NCBI RefSeq assembly: GCF_014202505.1
Contig: NZ_JACHGW010000001.1
Coordinates: forward strand, 248,001-312,000
Length of the DNA: 64,000 nt
Reading direction: 5' to 3'
From: Armatimonas rosea
Lineage (GTDB): Bacteria > Armatimonadota > Armatimonadia > Armatimonadales > Armatimonadaceae
Under the pieces are notes generated by a model. It was given only the letters and a program-made list of their open reading frames with translations, was not told where the DNA came from and made no database searches. Numbering within the stretch: the stretch's first letter is position 1; every line of letters begins with the position of its first letter. The position numbers were made by a program, and so were the translations under genes. Of this stretch, positions 21,421 to 62,888 are shown piece by piece.

Positions 21421-21550
21421 GGCTAGCCTCGACGGAGATCGTCGGGCTTTGGGGCCTTCGGCCGCCTCCTCGTGCCTCGTCGGTACAAGTTTGTTCCGAG
21501 CGAAGCGAGGCGGCGCGAAGCGCCCCATAGCGGGACGTTTACCGTCCACG
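21421..21550. repeat. Palindromic repeat, family C
   Basis: This noncoding element shares two blocks with 62715-62888: a 30-bp block at 21461-21490 (one mismatch; contains CTCGTCGGTACAAGT) and GGACGTTTACCGTCC (21533-21547), present there in reverse. Short hairpins (GGCCTTCGGCC, GCGCGAAGCGC) fill the rest. It occupies most of the gap between the DUF1501 gene and the MerR promoter. Confidence 0.75.
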
Positions 21551-24979: not shown

Positions 24980-25333
24980 TTACATCCCGGCAAAGAGAAA
25001 GACCTCGCGGACGATCTTACCCGCTTCGACGGTGTAGATTCCGACCTCATCGGCGATCAGCCGCTTGCCGCTGGCCTTGACGGTCACATCGAGCTTGAAG
25101 CGCACGACGAACATCCCAGTGCCCACAAACGGCCCCTCGACCTCGATTCCATGCACCTCGTGCTCGGACTGCCACTCGACTCCCTTGGCCTCGCAGGCCT
25201 CCAGGCCCGTGACCGTGAACTCATTGGCCTCCACACTGACAATTCCCTCGGCGTAGTACGCCTTCATCGCCTCACCGAACTTGCCTTCGCGGCACAGGGC
25301 AACGAGCCCATTTGCAATCTCTGCTGTTTCCAT
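24980..25333 (-). CDS. SnoaL-like / NTF2-fold protein
   Basis: This 117-aa protein of the SnoaL/NTF2 superfamily has helices at the N-terminus (METAEIANGLVALCREGKFG, EAMKAYYAEG), then strands ending RLIADEVGIYTVEAGKIVRE. The start at 25333 is fixed by GGAGG 7 nt upstream; the frame is open further upstream but without a signal. It probably binds or converts a small molecule. It lies upstream of the AraC-GyrI gene, with 52 bp between. Confidence 0.75.
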   Translation of the reverse strand: METAEIANGLVALCREGKFGEAMKAYYAEGIVSVEANEFTVTGLEACEAKGVEWQSEHEVHGIEVEGPFVGTGMFVVRFKLDVTVKASGKRLIADEVGIYTVEAGKIVREVFLFAGM

Positions 25334-25403
25334 AGCAAACCTCCAGGCAAGAGTATAGCGGCATTCTCTAGAATAATCAAACAACTGTTTGTTAAATTTT
25401 TAA

Positions 25404-25533
25404 ATCGCCCCTTCCCAACACAAAGGCCCCCGCCCATCCCGCGTTTATTCGGTAATGGCCGGAGGCCTTTGTGTCGGAGCCTGCGACGACAGCAAGACGC
25501 CCCGTCCATGGGGGCGATCTAACCGGGGCGATC
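25404..25533. repeat. MITE-like repeat, family D (copy 1)
   Basis: The ends are ATCGCCCC (25404-25411) and GGGGCGAT (25525-25532). Inside is a perfect 11-bp inverted repeat ACACAAAGGCC (25418-25428) / GGCCTTTGTGT (25464-25474). The ACAAAGGCCTnCGGCCAT core and the ends match copy 2 at 46477-46604. The element's last bases overlap the TAG stop of the helix-hairpin-helix gene. Confidence 0.8.
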
Positions 25534-26309
25534 TAGAGCCTCTCGCCGTACTTGTCGAAGTGGAGCGCCTTGCACTGCTCGATCCAGTTCTCACGGCCAA
25601 TGCGTCCCTGGAAGTACTCGATATTCTCCGCGACTTTCTCCAGCATGGCCGGTGTCAAGAGGGCGATCTGCTTGAAGGTCTGCAGCCCGAGCCCACGGAG
25701 CTTGGACTCGATAAAGGGCCCGACCCCAATGATCTCTTTTAGGTCATCGACACGGCCCTGCTCGACCGGAGGGATCACCAGCCCGGTAGCGGCCAGCGCC
25801 GCCGCGACGACCTCCGGGACAGCAGGTGGGGTGGGAGGCGTGGGGGGGCTCGGGAGCGCGGTGTGGAGGCGCTCCAGCTCGGCACTCTGGAGCAGAAGCC
25901 GCTCGCTCTGCTCCTGGAGCTTGGCGTTGGCGGTCTGGATATTGGCATTGGCCTGGTTGAGGGCGGCGCGGAGCTGGTCGCGCTCCGCGGTTATCCCCGC
26001 AAGGTCGCCCAGGGTGCGGGGGCCGGTCTCCAGGAGCGCTTTCTGCCGGGTGATGTCCTCGACACTGCGCGTGAGCTCATCGATACGGGCGTTGAGGGAG
26101 AGAGTCTCCTCCCGTGCCTTGTCGCGCTCTTCCTGGAGCTTGTCACGCTCGGCTTGCAGCACCGTGAGCTGCTTATCGTGATCCGTGTCCTCGGCCTCGT
26201 TTGCTTGCGCCGTTTTTTGGTGGTTGTGCCAGAGGGCGTAGCCCAGTAGCAGACCCAGCAGAAACGCGATCAGCAAACAGAACCAGATAAAGGTAAGAAG
26301 ATTCAGCAT
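25533..26309 (-). CDS. Membrane-anchored coiled-coil protein with helix-hairpin-helix domain
   Basis: This 258-aa protein has one N-terminal transmembrane helix (about residues 3-26), a long coiled coil (about 40-165) and a Pro-rich hinge. It ends in a helix-hairpin-helix domain (about 190-255; VDDLKEIIGVGPFIESKLRG, LGLQTFKQIALLTPAMLEKV) of the type found at the end of NuoE-like and ribosomal L21-like fusions. Such domains bind DNA or proteins. The position after an OmpA-family gene (11-bp gap, AGGAATC before the ATG) suggests a role at the cell envelope. Its stop falls on the edge of a repeat. Confidence 0.75.
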   Translation of the reverse strand: MLNLLTFIWFCLLIAFLLGLLLGYALWHNHQKTAQANEAEDTDHDKQLTVLQAERDKLQEERDKAREETLSLNARIDELTRSVEDITRQKALLETGPRTLGDLAGITAERDQLRAALNQANANIQTANAKLQEQSERLLLQSAELERLHTALPSPPTPPTPPAVPEVVAAALAATGLVIPPVEQGRVDDLKEIIGVGPFIESKLRGLGLQTFKQIALLTPAMLEKVAENIEYFQGRIGRENWIEQCKALHFDKYGERL

Positions 26310-28916: not shown

Positions 28917-29000
28917 GCATCCCTCCGGCATTCCTCCGACATCCCTCCCCCGGCCCCTCCCTTCGCTTGAAACCCACGTTCCGTGGGACGAAGGGAGGGG
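28917..29000. repeat. Palindromic repeat, family B (between convergent genes)
   Basis: CCCCTCCCTTCG (28954-28965) pairs perfectly with CGAAGGGAGGGG (28989-29000), and CCCACG with CGTGGG inside. The 5' half (GGCATCCCTCCGGCATTCCT) matches the reverse strand of the element inside the 33393 gene. It lies between two gene ends and may terminate transcription from both sides. Confidence 0.75.
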
Positions 29001-33392: not shown

Positions 33393-36203
33393 ATGAAGCG
33401 CTGTTTGCTTTTGCTCTCCCTGCTTGCGACCCTGGGGCTGCTTGCCGCCGCCTTCGCCGCTCCCGCGCCCGTGGACTACCGCCGTGAGATCCGCCCGATC
33501 CTGGCAGCCAACTGCCTGGGCTGCCACGGCGCCGACGAGCACAAGCGCTCGGCCAACCTGCGCCTGGACGAGCCCAATGCGGCGGTCGTGCCGGGCGATA
33601 TCCTGGCGAGCAAACTGGTCCAGCGGGTGCAGAGCGGGACGATGCCGCCCAAGGAGAGCGGGCACACGCTCACCCCGGCACAGAAACAGCTCCTGATGCG
33701 CTGGATCGGGCAGGGCGCCAAGTACGAAGGCCACTGGGCGTTTGTCGCACCGGCATCCCTCCCCCCGGCCCCCTCCCTTCCCCTGAGACCCAACTTCGTT
33801 GGGGGGAAGGGAGGGGGGGAACCCACCCCTCTGACTCCCCCTCTCTTCGTCCCTCGGAACGAGGGTTTCAAGCGAAGGGAGGGGGCCGGGGGGAGGAATG
33901 CCGGCAGGGATGCCAATATAGACTCATGGATTGCCGCGCGGCTCGCCAAGGAGAAGCTGACGCTCTCGCCGGAGGCCGACCGCTGGACCCTGGCGCGGCG
34001 CGTGGCGCTGGACCTAACGGGCCTGCCCCCAAGCCCCAAAGATGCCGAGGCGTTTGTGAACGACAAGGCGCCCAATGCCTATGAAAAGTTCGTGGACTCC
34101 CAGCTGGCAAGCCCGCACTTTGGCGAAAAGTGGGCGCGGGTCTGGCTCGATCTGGGCCGCTACGCCGACTCGGCGGGCTACGGCTCCGACCCGCTCCGCC
34201 CGAATCTCTGGCCCTGGCGGGACTGGCTGATCGCGGCGTTCAACAACAACAAGCCCTTCGATCAGTTCACCCTCGAAATGCTCGCGGGGGACTTGCTGCC
34301 GGGGGCCACCGACGATCAAAAGATCGCGACGGCGTTTCATCGCAATACCATGACCAACACGGAGGGCGGGACCGACGACGAAGAGTTTCGGATGGCGGCG
34401 GTGAAGGACCGGACGATCGTGACGATGCAGGCGTGGATGGGGCTGACCTTTCAGTGCGCCCAGTGCCACACCCATAAGTTCGACCCGATCTCTAAGACCG
34501 ATTTCTACCGGACCATGGCGATCTTCAACCAGACCGAGGACAATGATCGCGGCGATGAGTTTCCGACCCTGCCCGTGCTCACTGCGGCGCAGCGCGAGAA
34601 AAAACAAGCCCTGGAAAAAGAGCTTGCGGAGCTGGAGAGGCAGCGCGCCGCCGAGCCTGTGGGGAAGGCCCCGAGCGCACGCTTTGTAAGAGTCACGCTG
34701 CCTGGCACCGCGTTTCTGATGCTCGCGGAGGTGCAGGCGCTCAGCGGGAGTGAGAATGTCGCGCGCAAGGGTAAGGCGAGCCAGTCCAGCACGGACTTCG
34801 GCGGCGAGGCGGCGCGCGCCCTCGATGGCAACACCAGCGGCAAGTTCCCCGACAACACGGTCACCCACACCAAGCAGGAAAAAGACCCCTGGTGGGAGGT
34901 CGATCTGGGCGCAACCTACCCGCTCCAGAGTGTTGTGGTCTGGCCGCGCACCGATGCCCACCCTGGCATGCTCGCCAATCTGCGTGTCACGCTCTACGAT
35001 GAGAATCGCAAGGTGGTCGGGGAGCAGGGGATTCCCGGTGCGATCCTGACCGCCAAGACCGCGCTCCTCACCGACTCGCCCACGGCCCAGAAGCTCGCGC
35101 AGAAACAGGCCGAGCTAGCCGCGCTCAAGCCGATTGCCCTGCCCGTGCTGCGCGAGCTCCCCGAGGCCAAGCGCCGGGTCACCCACGCCCTAACCCTGGC
35201 CAACTTCCTCCAGCCCGAGGAGGTGGTGACTCCCGCGGGTCCGGCACGCTTTGCCCCCCCCGCCCCCAAGGAGGGGGGAGCCTGGAATCGCTTGAGCTTG
35301 GCCAAGTGGCTGGTCAGCCGCGAGAACCCGCTCACGGCGCGTGTTCAAGTGAACCGCTTCTGGGCGCAGCTCTTTGGGGTCGGCTTGGTGGAGACGGAGG
35401 AGGACTTCGGGACCCAGGGTGCTCTCCCCACCCACCCCGAGCTCCTCGACTCGCTCGCCCTCGACTTCCAGCGCGACTGGAATGTCAAGCGCCTGCTCAA
35501 GACCATCGTGATGAGCCGCACCTACCGCCAGAGCAGCAAGCTCACCCCGGAGCGGCTCGCCCGCGACCCCAAGGCCCGCCTGCTCTCGCGCTACCCGCGC
35601 CGCCGCTTAGACGCCGAGGGAATCCGTGACCAGGCGCTTCTGGTCAGTGGCCTGCTCTCCCACAAGCTCGGGGGCCCCAGTGTCTACCCGCCCCAGCCCG
35701 ATGGCCTCTGGAAAGCCGCGTTTAACGGCGAGCGGAGCTACCCCACCAGCACGGGAGAAGATCGCTACCGACGCGGCCTCTACACCTTCTGGCGACGCAC
35801 GGTCCCGTATCCCAGCATGCAGACCTTCGATGCCCCTAGCCGCGAGTTCTGCACCGTGCGCCGCCTTCCGACCAACACCCCGCTCCAAGCACTCGTCACG
35901 CTCAACGACCCGGCTTATTTGGAGATGGCGGTCGGCCTCGCCAAGCGCCTGCAGACCGAAGGCGGCACGACTCCCGCGGAGCGCGCCCGCCAAGGCCTGC
36001 GCCTCGCTCTCTGCCGCCCAGCAAACGAGGCGCAAGTCGCCCCGCTGGTCGCACTCTTTGAGAGCGAGAAGGCCCACTACGTGGCCCATCCGATGGAGGC
36101 CAAGAAGCTCACCGGCACCGAGAAAGAAGACCCCGAGCTGGCTGCGTGGACCGTGGTCGCCAATGTCCTGCTCAACCTAGACGGCGTGCTCACGAAGGGA
36201 TAA
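33393..36203 (+). CDS. Cytochrome c / DUF1549 / discoidin / DUF1553 exported protein
   Basis: This 936-aa protein has a signal peptide (KRCLLLLSLLATLGLLAAAF), then a planctomycete-type cytochrome c domain with CLGCH. DUF1549 follows (WIAARLAKEKLTLSPEADRW onward, second motif CAQCH), then an F5/8-type C (discoidin) sugar-binding domain (about 425-545; KGKASQSSTDFGGEAARALD) and DUF1553 (about 625-935). Residues about 121-174 are encoded by a palindromic repeat inserted between the heme domain and DUF1549. The DUF1501 gene follows after 5 bp. The pair probably acts on polysaccharide outside the cytoplasm; this is inferred from the discoidin domain only. The start at 33393 fits the TAGAAT box. 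Confidence 0.9.
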   Translation: MKRCLLLLSLLATLGLLAAAFAAPAPVDYRREIRPILAANCLGCHGADEHKRSANLRLDEPNAAVVPGDILASKLVQRVQSGTMPPKESGHTLTPAQKQLLMRWIGQGAKYEGHWAFVAPASLPPAPSLPLRPNFVGGKGGGEPTPLTPPLFVPRNEGFKRREGAGGRNAGRDANIDSWIAARLAKEKLTLSPEADRWTLARRVALDLTGLPPSPKDAEAFVNDKAPNAYEKFVDSQLASPHFGEKWARVWLDLGRYADSAGYGSDPLRPNLWPWRDWLIAAFNNNKPFDQFTLEMLAGDLLPGATDDQKIATAFHRNTMTNTEGGTDDEEFRMAAVKDRTIVTMQAWMGLTFQCAQCHTHKFDPISKTDFYRTMAIFNQTEDNDRGDEFPTLPVLTAAQREKKQALEKELAELERQRAAEPVGKAPSARFVRVTLPGTAFLMLAEVQALSGSENVARKGKASQSSTDFGGEAARALDGNTSGKFPDNTVTHTKQEKDPWWEVDLGATYPLQSVVVWPRTDAHPGMLANLRVTLYDENRKVVGEQGIPGAILTAKTALLTDSPTAQKLAQKQAELAALKPIALPVLRELPEAKRRVTHALTLANFLQPEEVVTPAGPARFAPPAPKEGGAWNRLSLAKWLVSRENPLTARVQVNRFWAQLFGVGLVETEEDFGTQGALPTHPELLDSLALDFQRDWNVKRLLKTIVMSRTYRQSSKLTPERLARDPKARLLSRYPRRRLDAEGIRDQALLVSGLLSHKLGGPSVYPPQPDGLWKAAFNGERSYPTSTGEDRYRRGLYTFWRRTVPYPSMQTFDAPSREFCTVRRLPTNTPLQALVTLNDPAYLEMAVGLAKRLQTEGGTTPAERARQGLRLALCRPANEAQVAPLVALFESEKAHYVAHPMEAKKLTGTEKEDPELAAWTVVANVLLNLDGVLTKG
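33752..33914. repeat. Composite family B repeat inside the DUF1549/1553 gene
   Basis: Perfect 9-bp terminal inverted repeats GGCATCCCT (33752-33760) and AGGGATGCC (33906-33914) bound two head-to-head hairpins rich in CCCTCCCTTC. The right half, read on the minus strand, matches 28917-29000 closely. The 163-bp element is translated in frame as about 54 Pro/Gly/Arg-rich residues. Confidence 0.8.
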
Positions 36204-45071: not shown

Positions 45072-46463
45072 TTACACTCCCTTTGCCAGTAAGGCCCCGA
45101 TAGGCTTCCCGAGGCCGTCGCGCGTGACATAGAACGGGCGCTTCTCCACCTCGTAGGCGTGCTTGGGCGAGATCCCCAGCGTATGGTAGATCGTCGCGTG
45201 CAGGTCCTCGATTACCACCGGGTTCTCGACCGTCTTGCACGGGCGCTCGTCAGCGGTCTTGCCATAGACAAAGCCTTTTTTCACGCCCCCGCCAAACATC
45301 AAAACACTTCCGGCGTCGGTGAAGTGCCGGTGCATCCCGTAGAACTTGGGCTCATTGACAATATCCGGGACGGTCACCTGGTCGCGGACACGGGCATCGG
45401 GCTTGCCCTCCATCATCATGTCGCGCGAGAACTCCGATGCCAGCACGATCAGGGTCCGGTCCAGCAGGCCACGCTCTTCGAGGTCTTTAACAAGCTGCGC
45501 GATGGGCGCGTCGATCTGGCGCTTCATCTCGGTCAGGCGCGTGTGGCCGTTATCGTGGGTGTCCCAGCCAAAGAACGGAACATACTCGGTGGTGACTTCG
45601 ATATAGCGCGCTCCGGCCTCACGCAGGCGGCGTGCCAGCAAGCACCCTTGGCCAAAGCGCCCGGTGTTGTAGCTATCGTAGCTGGCCTTGGGCTCTTTTG
45701 TCAGGTCAAAGGCGGCGGCGGCGGGCGACGACAGCAAGCGATGGGCGTTGTCCAGCGAGCGCAGCAGGCTCTCTTTCTGGTAGTCCGAGCCCACTTTCCC
45801 GACTAGGGACTCTCCGACCAGCTTTTTATAGAGCGCCTGGCGGTTCTCAAAGCGCGACGGTGTCATGCCCGCCGGGGGGCGCACAGCCTCGACCGCCTGA
45901 TCCGGGTAGGGCAGGTTGAAGGGGCCAAACTCGCTCCCCAGAAAGCCCGCCGTGGTAAATGCCTTGAGCTCCTCGCCCTCCCCGACATCGAAGCGCTGCC
46001 CGATATTGATAAACGCCGGGACGGCCTCATTCAGCGGCCCGAGGGTCCGCGCGATCACCGAGCCAATGTGCGGCGCCGCGACTGTCTGCGGCGGCGCGTA
46101 GCCGGTGTGCCAGTGGTACTGGTGGCGCGAGTGCAGGATCGCCCCCAGATCGCCCGCCCGGTAGGTGCGGATCAGGGTCGCCCGGTCCATCACCTGCGCG
46201 ATCTTCTCCAGCCCCTGCGAGAGCTGCACCCCGTCCACGACTGTCGGGATCGCCGGAAAGGTCGAGAGGATCTTCTCCGAGGGCGTCCCGGTCTCGTAGG
46301 GCGTGTAGCGCTTGGGGTCGAAGGTCTCGGTGTGGGCCATTCCGCCGCCCATCCACAAGACAATCACCGCATCCGCGGTCGCCTTCGGGGCGGGCTGCGC
46401 GGCCCAGAGCGGGCGGGCATAGCCCGCCGCCAGTGCGGATAAAAGTAGCTCTCGTCGGTTCAT
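45072..46463 (-). CDS. DUF1501 protein, partner of the 46603 gene
   Basis: This 463-aa DUF1501 protein has a short exported N-terminus (MNRRELLLSALAAGYARPLW). Motifs are AVIVLWMGGGMAHTETFDPK, CLLARRLREAGARYIEVTTE, GWDTHDNGHTRLTEMKRQID, LASEFSRDMMMEG and HATIYHTLGISPKHAYEVEK. It has SEFSRD where the other two copies have GEFGRT, so it belongs to a different branch. AAGGA before the ATG gives a leadered start. The family D repeat separates it from its upstream partner, 139 bp away. Confidence 0.9.
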   Translation of the reverse strand: MNRRELLLSALAAGYARPLWAAQPAPKATADAVIVLWMGGGMAHTETFDPKRYTPYETGTPSEKILSTFPAIPTVVDGVQLSQGLEKIAQVMDRATLIRTYRAGDLGAILHSRHQYHWHTGYAPPQTVAAPHIGSVIARTLGPLNEAVPAFINIGQRFDVGEGEELKAFTTAGFLGSEFGPFNLPYPDQAVEAVRPPAGMTPSRFENRQALYKKLVGESLVGKVGSDYQKESLLRSLDNAHRLLSSPAAAAFDLTKEPKASYDSYNTGRFGQGCLLARRLREAGARYIEVTTEYVPFFGWDTHDNGHTRLTEMKRQIDAPIAQLVKDLEERGLLDRTLIVLASEFSRDMMMEGKPDARVRDQVTVPDIVNEPKFYGMHRHFTDAGSVLMFGGGVKKGFVYGKTADERPCKTVENPVVIEDLHATIYHTLGISPKHAYEVEKRPFYVTRDGLGKPIGALLAKGV

Positions 46464-46476
46464 TTTCTATTCCTTG

Positions 46477-46604
46477 GATCGCCCCCGTAGGAGGGGGGCG
46501 TCAACGGGCGTTCCGCCACAAAGGCCTTCGGCCATACCGAATTATGGGCGGAGCCCTTCCCAGCACGAAGTGCTCGTTGACGCCCCGCTCTAACCGGGGC
46601 GATC
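46477..46604. repeat. MITE-like repeat, family D (copy 2)
   Basis: Imperfect 30-bp terminal inverted repeats (46477-46506 and 46575-46604) both begin GATCGCCCC and end GGGGCGTCAACG when read inward. The interior carries ACAAAGGCCTTCGGCCAT and the AGCACGAAGTGCT hairpin. Its last bases overlap the TGA stop of the DUF1549/1553 gene, which begins at 46603. Confidence 0.85.
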
Positions 46605-48942
46605 AATACAGCTGAAACTCCGGGCTCATCAGGAGCGCCCATAAAATATCTTCCAGTGCCTCGGGGGTGAGCTTGGTGCCCACCGCTTGGCGGATCGTGG
46701 CCCGCTCCGTGGTTGTGGGCGGGCGGCTCAGCGCGGTCTGGTAGAGGCCGTTGAGCACATCCTCGCCGTTGCCTGCGTGACGGAGCCAGGTGGACGCGCC
46801 GGTTTTGAGGCGGGCGGAGAGGAGCGGGCCGTTGGTCAGCTCTAGCGCCTGAAGCGTCGTGGCGACACTCTGGCGTTGCGTGACGGTCTGCTCCCGGTTG
46901 GGCCGTCCTAGGGCGCGGGTGAAGGCATCAGCGGTGGTGAGTGCGGCGCGGGCCTCGATCAGGGCATGGGCGGCTCCCACCACCGCAAAGCGCACCGAGA
47001 CCTCCTTGGGTGCCTCCTCGACCGCGCCTTGGTCCGGCCCGACCAGTGCACGGAAGCGGGTCGCGCCCTTGGGGACCTCATAGATCAGCAGGGAGTTGGC
47101 GTGGGTTCCGATTCCCTCGCCGTAGGTCTTCCCCGCGAGGCGCAGGGGCTTGCCGACGATGCTCTTGTCTTTCTGGATGGTCCCAAAGCCCGTGGTCGCG
47201 GATAGTAGGACACAGTCATCGGCATCGCGCTCGGTGTTGTCGGGGAAGCCAAAGTGCGGCTCGACCCAGTCCGCCCAGTCGTGGTTGGCGTTGCCGTTGC
47301 CATCGGTGGCGGCCAGCACGAGAATCTCTGCGCCAGTGATATCCACATCGACTTGCTTTGCCCCGGAGCGCAGTAGTCCACTGTCGAAGAGCACCTTGCC
47401 CGTGCGCTTGGGGACACTGACCACACCCTTGTTGATCCGTAGCGTCTCCACCGGCGTGGGCCAGCTCTCGGTCAGGGTAGAGATCGCATCGGTGAGCTGC
47501 TCGGCGGAGAGGCGCTTGACCGCAGGGCCGGTGAAGACATAGCCGCTCGGCTTCTCTTTCGCCAGCCCCTGCGACGGCAGCTGATACGCGCGGCTCGTGG
47601 CGATCTGGGCCAGCGTGTGCTTGAGGTCGTAGCCGTGGGCCACAAAATCGCTCGCCAGCCAGTCCAGTAGCGCTGGGTTCCAGGGCTTGTGGTCCAGCTC
47701 GTCGTTGGGCTCGACCAGGCCGCGCCCCATGAGCTTGGTCCAGAGCCGGTTGACAACCGTCCGGGCGAAGCGGCCGTTGGCGGGCGAGGTCAGCGCCGCC
47801 GCGACTTGGGCGCGCCGGGTTGCCAGGGGCGCGTTGCCATCGACACTGCCCAGCTCGGGCCACAAAAACTTAGCGCTCGCCATGGTTCCCGTGGGCTTGT
47901 CGCAGCGCACCAGCTCCAGCGGGGTGTCTGAGAACGCCGTGGCCAGGCCGTAGGCATCGCGCAGCTTCCAGTTGCTGGTGAAGCTATCGTGGCACGATGC
48001 GCACTTGAGGTTCACGCCCAGAAACACCTGCCCGATATTCTGCGCCGCTTGGAGCGGGGGGCGCTGGCTGGCATTGACCACGCCACGCCAGACAATTCCT
48101 TTGATAAAACCCTCGGACTCCGGGCTTGGCGGGGCGACCAGCTCGCGCACAAACTGGTCGTAGGGCTTGTTGCTCTCCAGAGATGCATACAGCCAGCTCG
48201 TGATCTGGCTCCGGCCACCGTCGATATAGCCCGTCCCGACATAGTCGTTGCGGAGCGCATCGTTCCAGAAGGTCAGCCAGTGCTCGGTGTAGTTCTTCGT
48301 GTCGGCCAAGAGGCTCGCCACCAGCCGCTCACGCTTATCGGGGCGCGTGTCCAGCACAAACGCCGTGGTCTGCCGCGGCGACGGTAGCAGGCCCACTAAA
48401 TCCAAGTACGCCCGCCGCACAAAGACCCGGTCGCTGACAATCGCTCCCGGCGCGACTTTCTTCGCCGCAAAGTACGGCGCGAGCAAGCGATCCACCGGGT
48501 TACCTTGGCCCGCGGGGACATTCACCGGCACCAGTGCCAATGGCGGTGTCCAGGCCGCGTCCTCGTTCTCCGCCGCGCCATCGAACGGCAGGCCCGCATC
48601 GATCCAGCGCCGGAGTGTCTCGACCTCGCTGGCCTTGAGGTGCGCCCCCTGCGGCGGCATCACCCCTTTCGCTACCAGCTCGATCAAATAGCTCTGCGCC
48701 CCCTTACCGGGCCGCGCGACCGGATGGGTCTTGCCGCCGGTGAGGATCGCCTCCCGGCTATCGAGCGAGAAGTCTCCCTGCTTGGCCCCGTTGCTATGGC
48801 ACGACGAGCAGTTCTTCTTCAGGATCGGCAGCACATCGCGCTGGTACGAGACTGCCTTTTGCGTCGTCTGCACCTTCTGCGCGCCCAGCGCCATCACGCT
48901 CAGACCACCCAGCGCCAGCGCTCCCACAAGCCTACGAATCAT
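46603..48942 (-). CDS. Cytochrome c / DUF1549 / NPCBM / DUF1553 exported protein
   Basis: This 779-aa protein has a signal peptide (MIRRLVGALALGGLSVMALG) and a heme motif CSSCH in PILKKNCSSCHSNGAK. DUF1549 follows, with KCASCH, then DUF1553. An NPCBM-type sugar-binding domain is inserted near residues 585-700 (GKTYGEGIGTHANSLLIYEV). It differs from the 33393 protein, which carries a discoidin domain. The start at 48942 was chosen for its signal peptide and for TATCAT 7 nt upstream; the frame is open 44 codons further but without signals. It is followed by a repeat, then DUF1501. Confidence 0.9.
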   Translation of the reverse strand: MIRRLVGALALGGLSVMALGAQKVQTTQKAVSYQRDVLPILKKNCSSCHSNGAKQGDFSLDSREAILTGGKTHPVARPGKGAQSYLIELVAKGVMPPQGAHLKASEVETLRRWIDAGLPFDGAAENEDAAWTPPLALVPVNVPAGQGNPVDRLLAPYFAAKKVAPGAIVSDRVFVRRAYLDLVGLLPSPRQTTAFVLDTRPDKRERLVASLLADTKNYTEHWLTFWNDALRNDYVGTGYIDGGRSQITSWLYASLESNKPYDQFVRELVAPPSPESEGFIKGIVWRGVVNASQRPPLQAAQNIGQVFLGVNLKCASCHDSFTSNWKLRDAYGLATAFSDTPLELVRCDKPTGTMASAKFLWPELGSVDGNAPLATRRAQVAAALTSPANGRFARTVVNRLWTKLMGRGLVEPNDELDHKPWNPALLDWLASDFVAHGYDLKHTLAQIATSRAYQLPSQGLAKEKPSGYVFTGPAVKRLSAEQLTDAISTLTESWPTPVETLRINKGVVSVPKRTGKVLFDSGLLRSGAKQVDVDITGAEILVLAATDGNGNANHDWADWVEPHFGFPDNTERDADDCVLLSATTGFGTIQKDKSIVGKPLRLAGKTYGEGIGTHANSLLIYEVPKGATRFRALVGPDQGAVEEAPKEVSVRFAVVGAAHALIEARAALTTADAFTRALGRPNREQTVTQRQSVATTLQALELTNGPLLSARLKTGASTWLRHAGNGEDVLNGLYQTALSRPPTTTERATIRQAVGTKLTPEALEDILWALLMSPEFQLY

Positions 48943-48949
48943 GCTTGCT

Positions 48950-48955
48950 ATGATA
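48950..48955 (-). promoter_or_regulatory. Leaderless -10 box of the second DUF1549/1553 operon
   Basis: TATCAT ends 7 nt before the ATG at 48942. Confidence 0.55.
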
Positions 48956-49008
48956 CCGAAATTCTCCAAACAACACCGGGCCATGATAAAACAAATCCGA
49001 GGTGCAAG

Positions 49009-49683
49009 ATGGCTGGACCGTTTCCGGGCATGGACCCGTTTCTGGAGAAACCTGGCTTCTGGCAGGAGTTTCACAACAGCTTCATTGCTCTTCTTAATAT
49101 CGTTATCAATCGCGAACTACCCTCACGTTTTCTCTCCTATACCCAAGTAAGAATGATCCAGGACGAGGATGAGTTTCGTCGTGAAGCCTACCTGGAAATT
49201 TTTGATAGAACCAACCGGAGCCATGTCGTGATGGTCATTGAGCTGCTTAGCCCTGAGAATAAGCATGGCAAGGGGCGGGAAGAGTACCAGCGTAAGCAAC
49301 AAGCAGTCCTTCAGAGTCAGGCACATCTGCTGGAGATTGACCTCCTTCGTGGGGGAGAGCATACGGTTGCTGCTCCTCGGGAGGGAGCACTCGCTCTGGG
49401 GAGCTACTCCTATCTCCTGAGCCTTGCCAATGCCCAAGAACCGGGCAAGATTCTGCTCTGGCGCATCGGACTTGCCGACCGCCTTCCCATGCTAGAGCTT
49501 CCTCTCACCGCTGATGTCCCACCCTTCACGCTCGATCTTCAGGCCGTCTTCGACCGCTGCTACGACGAAAACCGCTACGCGGAGCTCCTCGAAGTTGCCT
49601 ACACCCAGTCCGCTGAACCCACCTTCACTGAGGAAGAAGCCGCTTGGTCACACGAGTGTCTGGAGGGCTACGTGGTATCCTAG
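49009..49683 (+). CDS. DUF4058 family protein, shortened
   Basis: This 224-aa protein starts with the DUF4058 signature (GPFPGMDPFLEKPGFWQEFH). It has REAYLEI, then VIELLSPENKHGKGREEYQR and AHLLEIDLLRGGEH. Members are usually larger: between the N-terminal block and REAYLEI about 50 residues of the common form are missing here. Function unknown. It starts behind CGAGGTG and is divergent from the DUF1549/1553 gene. The region is less GC-rich than its neighbours, which suggests transfer. Confidence 0.8.
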   Translation: MAGPFPGMDPFLEKPGFWQEFHNSFIALLNIVINRELPSRFLSYTQVRMIQDEDEFRREAYLEIFDRTNRSHVVMVIELLSPENKHGKGREEYQRKQQAVLQSQAHLLEIDLLRGGEHTVAAPREGALALGSYSYLLSLANAQEPGKILLWRIGLADRLPMLELPLTADVPPFTLDLQAVFDRCYDENRYAELLEVAYTQSAEPTFTEEEAAWSHECLEGYVVS

Positions 49684-62714: not shown

Positions 62715-62888
62715 GTGTGAGCCTTGGACGGTAAACGTCCGCGCCCAGAGGGCACCCGGGGCACTTCGTGCCGCCTCCTCGTCCCTCGTCGGTACAAGTA
62801 GGCTCGTCGGTACAAGACTAATCTGAGCGAAGCGAACGGCGGAGGGACGACGCCCCAAAGCCGCACGATTTCCGTGCAGGGCTCACAC
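62715..62888. repeat. Palindromic repeat, family C (copy 2)
   Basis: The ends are GTGTGAGCC (62715-62723) and GGCTCACAC (62880-62888), a perfect 9-bp inverted pair. Inside are GGACGGTAAACGTCC (62726-62740), the 30-bp block shared with 21461-21490 (here 62770-62799) and a tandem copy of CTCGTCGGTACAAG. Apart from this element, the 303-bp gap 62612-62914 holds only the leader of the PQQ gene. Confidence 0.8.

Follow-up and report, generated by a model that had tools for sequence, protein, structure and literature searches.

Family D copies in the window and their flanking genes

The window, a stretch of 64,000 nucleotides from the genome of Armatimonas rosea, contains two copies of a palindromic repeat, here called family D, and the genes that flank them (Table 1). 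The original prediction stated that both copies end within the stop codon of a minus-strand gene, and this could be read directly at 25533 (TAG) and 46603 (TGA). On the plus strand, positions 25525-25533 and 46596-46604 both read GGGGCGATC, which occurs eight times in the window against 1.55 occurrences expected. At copy 1, the CTA at 25533-25535 is the TAG stop of the minus-strand ORF and its last base is also the last base of the repeat, an overlap of a single base. At copy 2, the TCA at 46603-46605 is the TGA stop, the GA of which is formed by the last two bases of the repeat. In copy 1 the left end hairpin is missing, and on the right a further layer of 14 nt lies outside the core; it is this layer that meets the TAG, not the core, which ends at 25519. 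Folding was far stronger than that of shuffled sequences for both copy 1 (z −5.6) and copy 2 (z −8.3). A comparison with Rfam gave no match in the window.

Table 1. Positions of the family D copies, their parts and the neighboring genes in the window
Feature	Position	Strand	Remarks
Family D copy 1, palindromic non-autonomous element	25404..25533		Left end degenerate; right end with one outer layer
Copy 1 core, right end hairpin	25496..25519	-	Plus strand GACGCCCCGTCCATGGGGGCGATC; compensatory changes over 56 copies
Copy 1, extra outer terminal layer	25520..25533	-	Plus strand TAACCGGGGCGATC; final base is the final base of the stop
Gene ending in copy 1, 258 aa	25533..26309	-	Native TAG; no confident Pfam family
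Gene downstream of copy 1, start side	24980..25384	-	
Family D copy 2, intact palindromic element	46477..46604		
Copy 2, left end hairpin	46477..46502	+	Compensatory changes over 56 copies
Copy 2, right end hairpin	46579..46604	-	Two final bases fall within the TGA
DUF1549/DUF1553 (PSCyt2/PSD1) gene ending in copy 2	46603..49074	-	Native TGA
DUF1501 gene	45072..46463	-	Start lies 13 nt past copy 2 on the left side

Structure of the family D elements

Judged from their sequence, the family D repeats are most likely palindromic MITEs, i.e., non-autonomous mobile elements of about 130 bases. Alignment of 56 copies revealed a 7-bp hairpin at each end, with compensatory changes (CG to TA and CG to GC) as expected for substrates of an HUH transposase. 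Beyond these end hairpins, the whole-element consensus fold recovered only parts of the inner stems, because two subfamilies (with AACGAGC and TTGCTGTC arms) had been aligned together. The nearest copies in this alignment were at most 94% identical, and recent transposition was not visible among them.

The gap between the core and the stop codon is often filled by one or two degenerate layers of 15 nt that repeat the end of the element (e.g., TAG ATCGCCCCCGTTTTTT followed by ATCGCCCC). At some loci, such as L053, L055, and L003, the left and right outer layers of a single copy agree in copy-specific detail (GTGTG/CACAC), which suggests nested insertion into older small palindromes. A different arrangement was found at C7:177143-177279 (L049), where the palindrome extends about 20 nt past the element on both sides, as far as the start codons of two divergent genes, and provides both with mirror-image promoters (GGGTAAAAT..CTCCCATG).

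Genome-wide copies and their distance to stop codons

Copies were gathered from the 6.3-Mb Armatimonadota genome (G000, contigs C1 onwards) by similarity search and from contiguous stretches rather than by a complete scan. The search matched about 75 places across the genome, and about 10 copies were contained in 440 kb of contiguous sequence from contig C1; together these figures suggest one to two hundred family D copies per genome. The 56 copies with both end hairpins were retained for analysis, and their neighboring genes were called with a simple codon-usage gene finder of our own, trained on C1. Among these copies, 33 lay between codirectional genes, 11 between convergent genes, and 12 between divergent genes. 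One divergent copy overlapped a called ORF and was dropped from the flank analysis, leaving 55 copies, 11 of them divergent.

The distances of the collected copies to stop codons, which the original prediction had proposed to measure, agreed with it for the codirectional and convergent copies: a stop was found within 16 nt in 36 of 44 and within 36 nt in all 44. Uniform placement in intergenic DNA predicts 9% and 17%, respectively (binomial p 1.5e-30 for 36/44 against 9%). When every gap was weighted equally, with uniform placement inside it, the predicted proportions rose to 46-52% and 63-67%, and the excess within 16 nt remained significant (p 4e-5). In codirectional gaps the stop was nearer than the start at a ratio of 28:3. 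Part of this bias arises because the spacers are very short, with a median of 3 nt between convergent genes in G000. The bias toward stops is real, though it comes partly from short spacers.

The stop-facing core ends fell at about −2 to 0, 3 to 10, 11 to 18, or 20 to 36 nt, apart from three outliers (−15, −14, and 161 nt), and the outermost end overlapped or abutted the stop (−2 to +1 nt) in about 18 of 55 stop-facing ends. Since exact contact was limited to about a third of the ends, the effect is best stated as a position within a few nt of the stop. The association is general without being absolute: 11 of the 55 copies stand between divergent genes, where there is no stop, and these in part provide the contrary observation named in the original prediction, copies without relation to stop codons. 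No significant preference for a particular stop codon was detected (TAG in 32/55, against 171/352 in a genome sample; p 0.2). A TAG-specific target was rejected for want of such an excess.

Most stops belong to the genes themselves

The C-termini of the 55 stop-facing genes were compared with those of a genome from the same genus (G001), in which an orthologue was found for 52. The end codon was the same in 36 of the 52 pairs, including both window genes. The DUF1549/DUF1553 protein ends in ...EFQLY* with TGA in both species, and the G001 site reads TGA GAAAAACC ATG where G000 has the element. The protein next to copy 1 ends at the same place, with TAG in both species (KYGERL* against KYGEKI* in G001). 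In G001 an intrinsic terminator separates this TAG from AAATTTAACAAACA, and in G000 copy 1 stands between the two, i.e., where G001 has its terminator. Because their C-termini and stop codons are conserved in G001, both window stops are native. The proposal that the element can settle at a stop without damage is thus supported for the two window genes and for the 36 conserved pairs.

A few other genes gave a different picture. At C1:159364 (right) and C1:405477 (left), the end hairpin encodes the final residues and contains the stop, and each protein exceeds its G001 counterpart by a few residues; at C2:401093 (right) the last residues are encoded by an outer layer. In these three cases the element is the likely source of the stop or of the last residues. 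The G001 orthologue is longer by 24 aa at C3:507388 (right), by 10 at C1:919087 (right), by 6 at C8:4208 (left), and by 6 net at C2:1152342 (right), so about four proteins may have been trimmed by the element. Trimming, which the original prediction had also raised, is therefore conceivable for those few genes but excluded for the two in the window.

These cases are what would be expected if the element supplied the stop, its GATC end giving T-GA or TA-G, and so trimmed the genes that it entered. Supply of the stop was another suggestion of the original prediction. The three likely cases and the 24 aa missing at C3:507388 fit it, but the shared end codon in 36/52 pairs and the native stops of both window genes do not. 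Stop supply or trimming as a general rule was accordingly rejected by the orthologue comparison, and we consider this explanation very improbable. Going by the orthologous sequences, the stops are nearly always the genes' own.

Empty sites and sites shared with another palindrome family

Several orthologous sites in G001 are empty, reading TAG^C ATG at C1:524121, TAA AAAC ATG at C8:30531, and TAA GCGAAAA ATG at C4:69410. The spacers hit by insertion, that of window copy 2 included, measure 1-8 nt. Flanking duplications of about 5 nt were seen at C1:524121 and C1:1627363 and at none of the other sites examined; neither a common target motif nor a consistent target-site duplication could be read from the empty sites examined. 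At C1:168172, between divergent promoters, G001 has a clean empty site (TTTTACC^GCTATAAT) in which there is no stop, showing that a stop is not required for insertion.

At five loci (C1:53694, C1:697364, C2:294407, C2:981622, and C2:1518905) G001 has a palindrome of a different family, with TCCCGCCGATCAGAACGGCGGGACTGGAGAGC ends, at the orthologous stop. At C2:981622 it has the same right flank, and at C2:1518905 it abuts both stops. This family has dozens of matches in each of the two genomes. In the G001 loci that were read, it was found at 8 of 52 target 3′ ends and at 0 of 126 others (Fisher p 3.5e-5), but these loci had been chosen around D sites and the independent units are the five loci rather than the eight ends, which gives a p of about 0.002. 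This would follow if certain 3′ ends attract elements of this kind, or if an old element was replaced. At C1:1255885, a D copy of G000 stands where G001 has a small hairpin, and the remnants flanking the copy resemble that hairpin. As a separate observation, the entire 21-nt spacer between the convergent genes at C1:243794 of G000 is a single hairpin between the two stops (TAG CCGCCGGTTGGAAACCGGCGG CTA).

These sites bear on whether the transposase recognizes a landing site at the 3′ end of genes, such as a hairpin or terminator beside the stop, or a motif that includes the stop itself, in place of mere tolerance of insertions there. Such recognition would account for the finding that a stop lies no more than 36 nt from any of the 44 non-divergent copies, where equal gap weight predicts 63-67%, for the five shared loci with their 8/52 against 0/126 ends, for the position of copy 1 in the place of an intrinsic terminator, and for the resembling remnants at C1:1255885. 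On the other hand, 11 of 55 copies lie between divergent genes, one of them at the clean stop-free site, no particular stop codon is preferred, and the spacers are so short (convergent median 3 nt) that tolerance alone yields much of the effect. We regard targeted insertion as possible but rather unlikely. A more specific proposal is that unrelated or distantly related palindromes repeatedly settle at the same sites right behind native stops across sister species and replace intrinsic terminators there, as 3′-end-targeting transposons that are either tolerated or kept as replaceable terminators; this seems improbable to us.

A Y1 transposase gene inside a family D palindrome

Seven Y1_Tnp genes were found in G000. 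One of them (C2:819986-820321) occupies the exact center of a D palindrome (L106, C2:819.8-820.5 kb), with one half on either side. The left outer layer of this full-length element begins at a TGA, and its right end is 15 nt from the facing TAG. Most of the remaining Y1 genes have inverted repeats of other families on either side. HVH at positions 62-64 and the catalytic Tyr122 were invariant in the six aligned Y1 proteins, five of which scored 66-74 bits with the IS200 model NF033573 (cut-off 55; the L111 copy scored 38). The RAYT model NF047646 was not matched by the Y1 proteins, with 25-31 bits (29 for the D-type protein) against a cut-off of 80. In the simplest reading of these sequences, the D copies would be transposase-free versions of the full-length Y1 element. 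A point against is that the D-type Y1 gene could be a passenger that entered a D copy and is not what moves it. An IS630/Tc1-like mobilizer with a TA target, hinted at by the TTTAGATC...GATCTAAA flanks, was not taken up after the discovery of the Y1 gene within the palindrome.

Homologous Y1 genes from other Armatimonadota, Chloroflexota, Cyanobacteria, and other groups had long flanking inverted repeats above shuffled controls in 21 of 30 cases, and the end hairpin of the closest related gene (L192, CGCCCCGTGAACGGGGCG) resembles that of family D. The approximately 60 nt upstream of the Y1 starts form a strongly conserved leader (TTTTATCAGATTTGG...CTCACCCGTTATAGGGGC-start) in all seven G000 loci (L105-L111), with differing inverted repeats, as if one transposase cassette were placed in different palindromes. 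The locus at C1:1634.4-1635.3 kb (L110) is chimaeric, with a left inverted repeat of the G001 type, a right one of family D, and one Y1 gene between them.

Other repeats were also observed in the window. Those at 21427-21508 and 62785-62880 contain CTCGTCGGTACAAG and CCCCAAAGCC. The Y1 gene of L111 is flanked by an inverted repeat in which the CGTCGGTACAAG part is found again; these window repeats therefore probably form a separate family of this type. A further palindromic family (CCCCGGCCCCTCCCTTCGCTTGAAACCCAC...) occupies 28947-29000, 33763-33816, and 33838-33891, and also occurs between the convergent stops next to 28915.

The Y1 gene bears as well on whether the copies are mobile at all, or are structures that the host evolved at its 3′ ends (bidirectional terminators or mRNA stabilizers) and that are alike by convergence. 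The compensatory hairpin changes and the place of copy 1, where G001 has a terminator, would suit such structures. However, about 130 bp of common sequence recur at dozens of loci and are absent from the orthologous G001 sites, one copy contains a Y1 gene, and others stand between divergent promoters; a non-mobile origin is scarcely credible.

The explanation that we consider likely as a whole is that the D MITEs are moved in trans by an IS200-type Y1 transposase, retained behind native stops, and used as transcript 3′ ends. The IS200-type Y1 (HUH) enzyme would act on the small end hairpins, and the copies moved in trans would settle in the very short gaps that follow genes. An insertion just 3′ of a native stop should leave the upstream protein and the start signals downstream intact and would be retained, the survival of harmless insertions being, we infer, the main cause of the stop bias. 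The inserted hairpin may then serve as the 3′ end or terminator of the transcript.

Relation to known repeat systems

MIRU, ERIC, and similar repeats are also intergenic, and MIRUs occur at stop/start overlaps, but they are unrelated to family D in sequence and have other mobilizers. A search of the literature on Armatimonas with palindromic repeats returned nothing relevant. By its sequence organization, family D matches a published class, TIRYT or TIRtrons, in which Y1 genes have long inverted repeats on both sides and the TIR families are dispersed (Di Nocera et al. 2013, PMC3733652). As in that class, the inverted repeats around the Y1 gene belong to a dispersed family and several Y1 genes with different inverted repeats occur in one genome (PMC3733652). 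The differences are that D is a new sequence family in Armatimonadota, a phylum absent from PMC3733652, that it has nested extra end layers, and that its Y1 protein scores as IS200 rather than REP-associated.

REPs and REPINs with their RAYTs are likewise pairs of inverted small hairpins dispersed by a Y1 enzyme (PMC3733652, PMC3116915, PMC12306157). Most REPs are found no more than about 20 bp from the 3′ end of an ORF, and a TAG stop is often provided by their GTAG termini (PMC3733652); according to work cited in PMC12306157, translation can be repressed or reduced when a REP is located within 15 nt of a stop. In contrast, the transposase of family D scores 29 bits with the RAYT model, which has a cut-off of 80. 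No GTAG-tagged unit of 20-40 bp was seen in the D alignment consensus, and GGAG stands in the loop of one end type. The PATEs of Haloquadratum are IS200/IS605-type-derived and transposase-free, with near-terminal palindromes and common nested insertions (PMC3119063). Family D copies are also transposase-free and probably derived from an IS200/IS605-type element, with palindromes near the ends, but family D forms one long inverted repeat, whereas PATEs are without terminal inverted repeats. An IS200-type TnpA and subterminal hairpins, as in IS200/IS605 elements, both occur in family D. Stop adjacency was thus already known for relatives (REPs, PMC3733652), and it is the D family itself that is new.

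Implications

One genome offers the full set, with a candidate driver gene inside a palindrome and dozens of passenger copies, and the sister species provides the empty sites. The D set informs a little-studied class of Y1 repeats. Adjacency to stops mostly reflects insertion into the very short spacers that follow native stops, not the creation of new stops. If the sharing of sites by different families does amount to targeting, the way in which repeats avoid harm in compact genomes would become testable.
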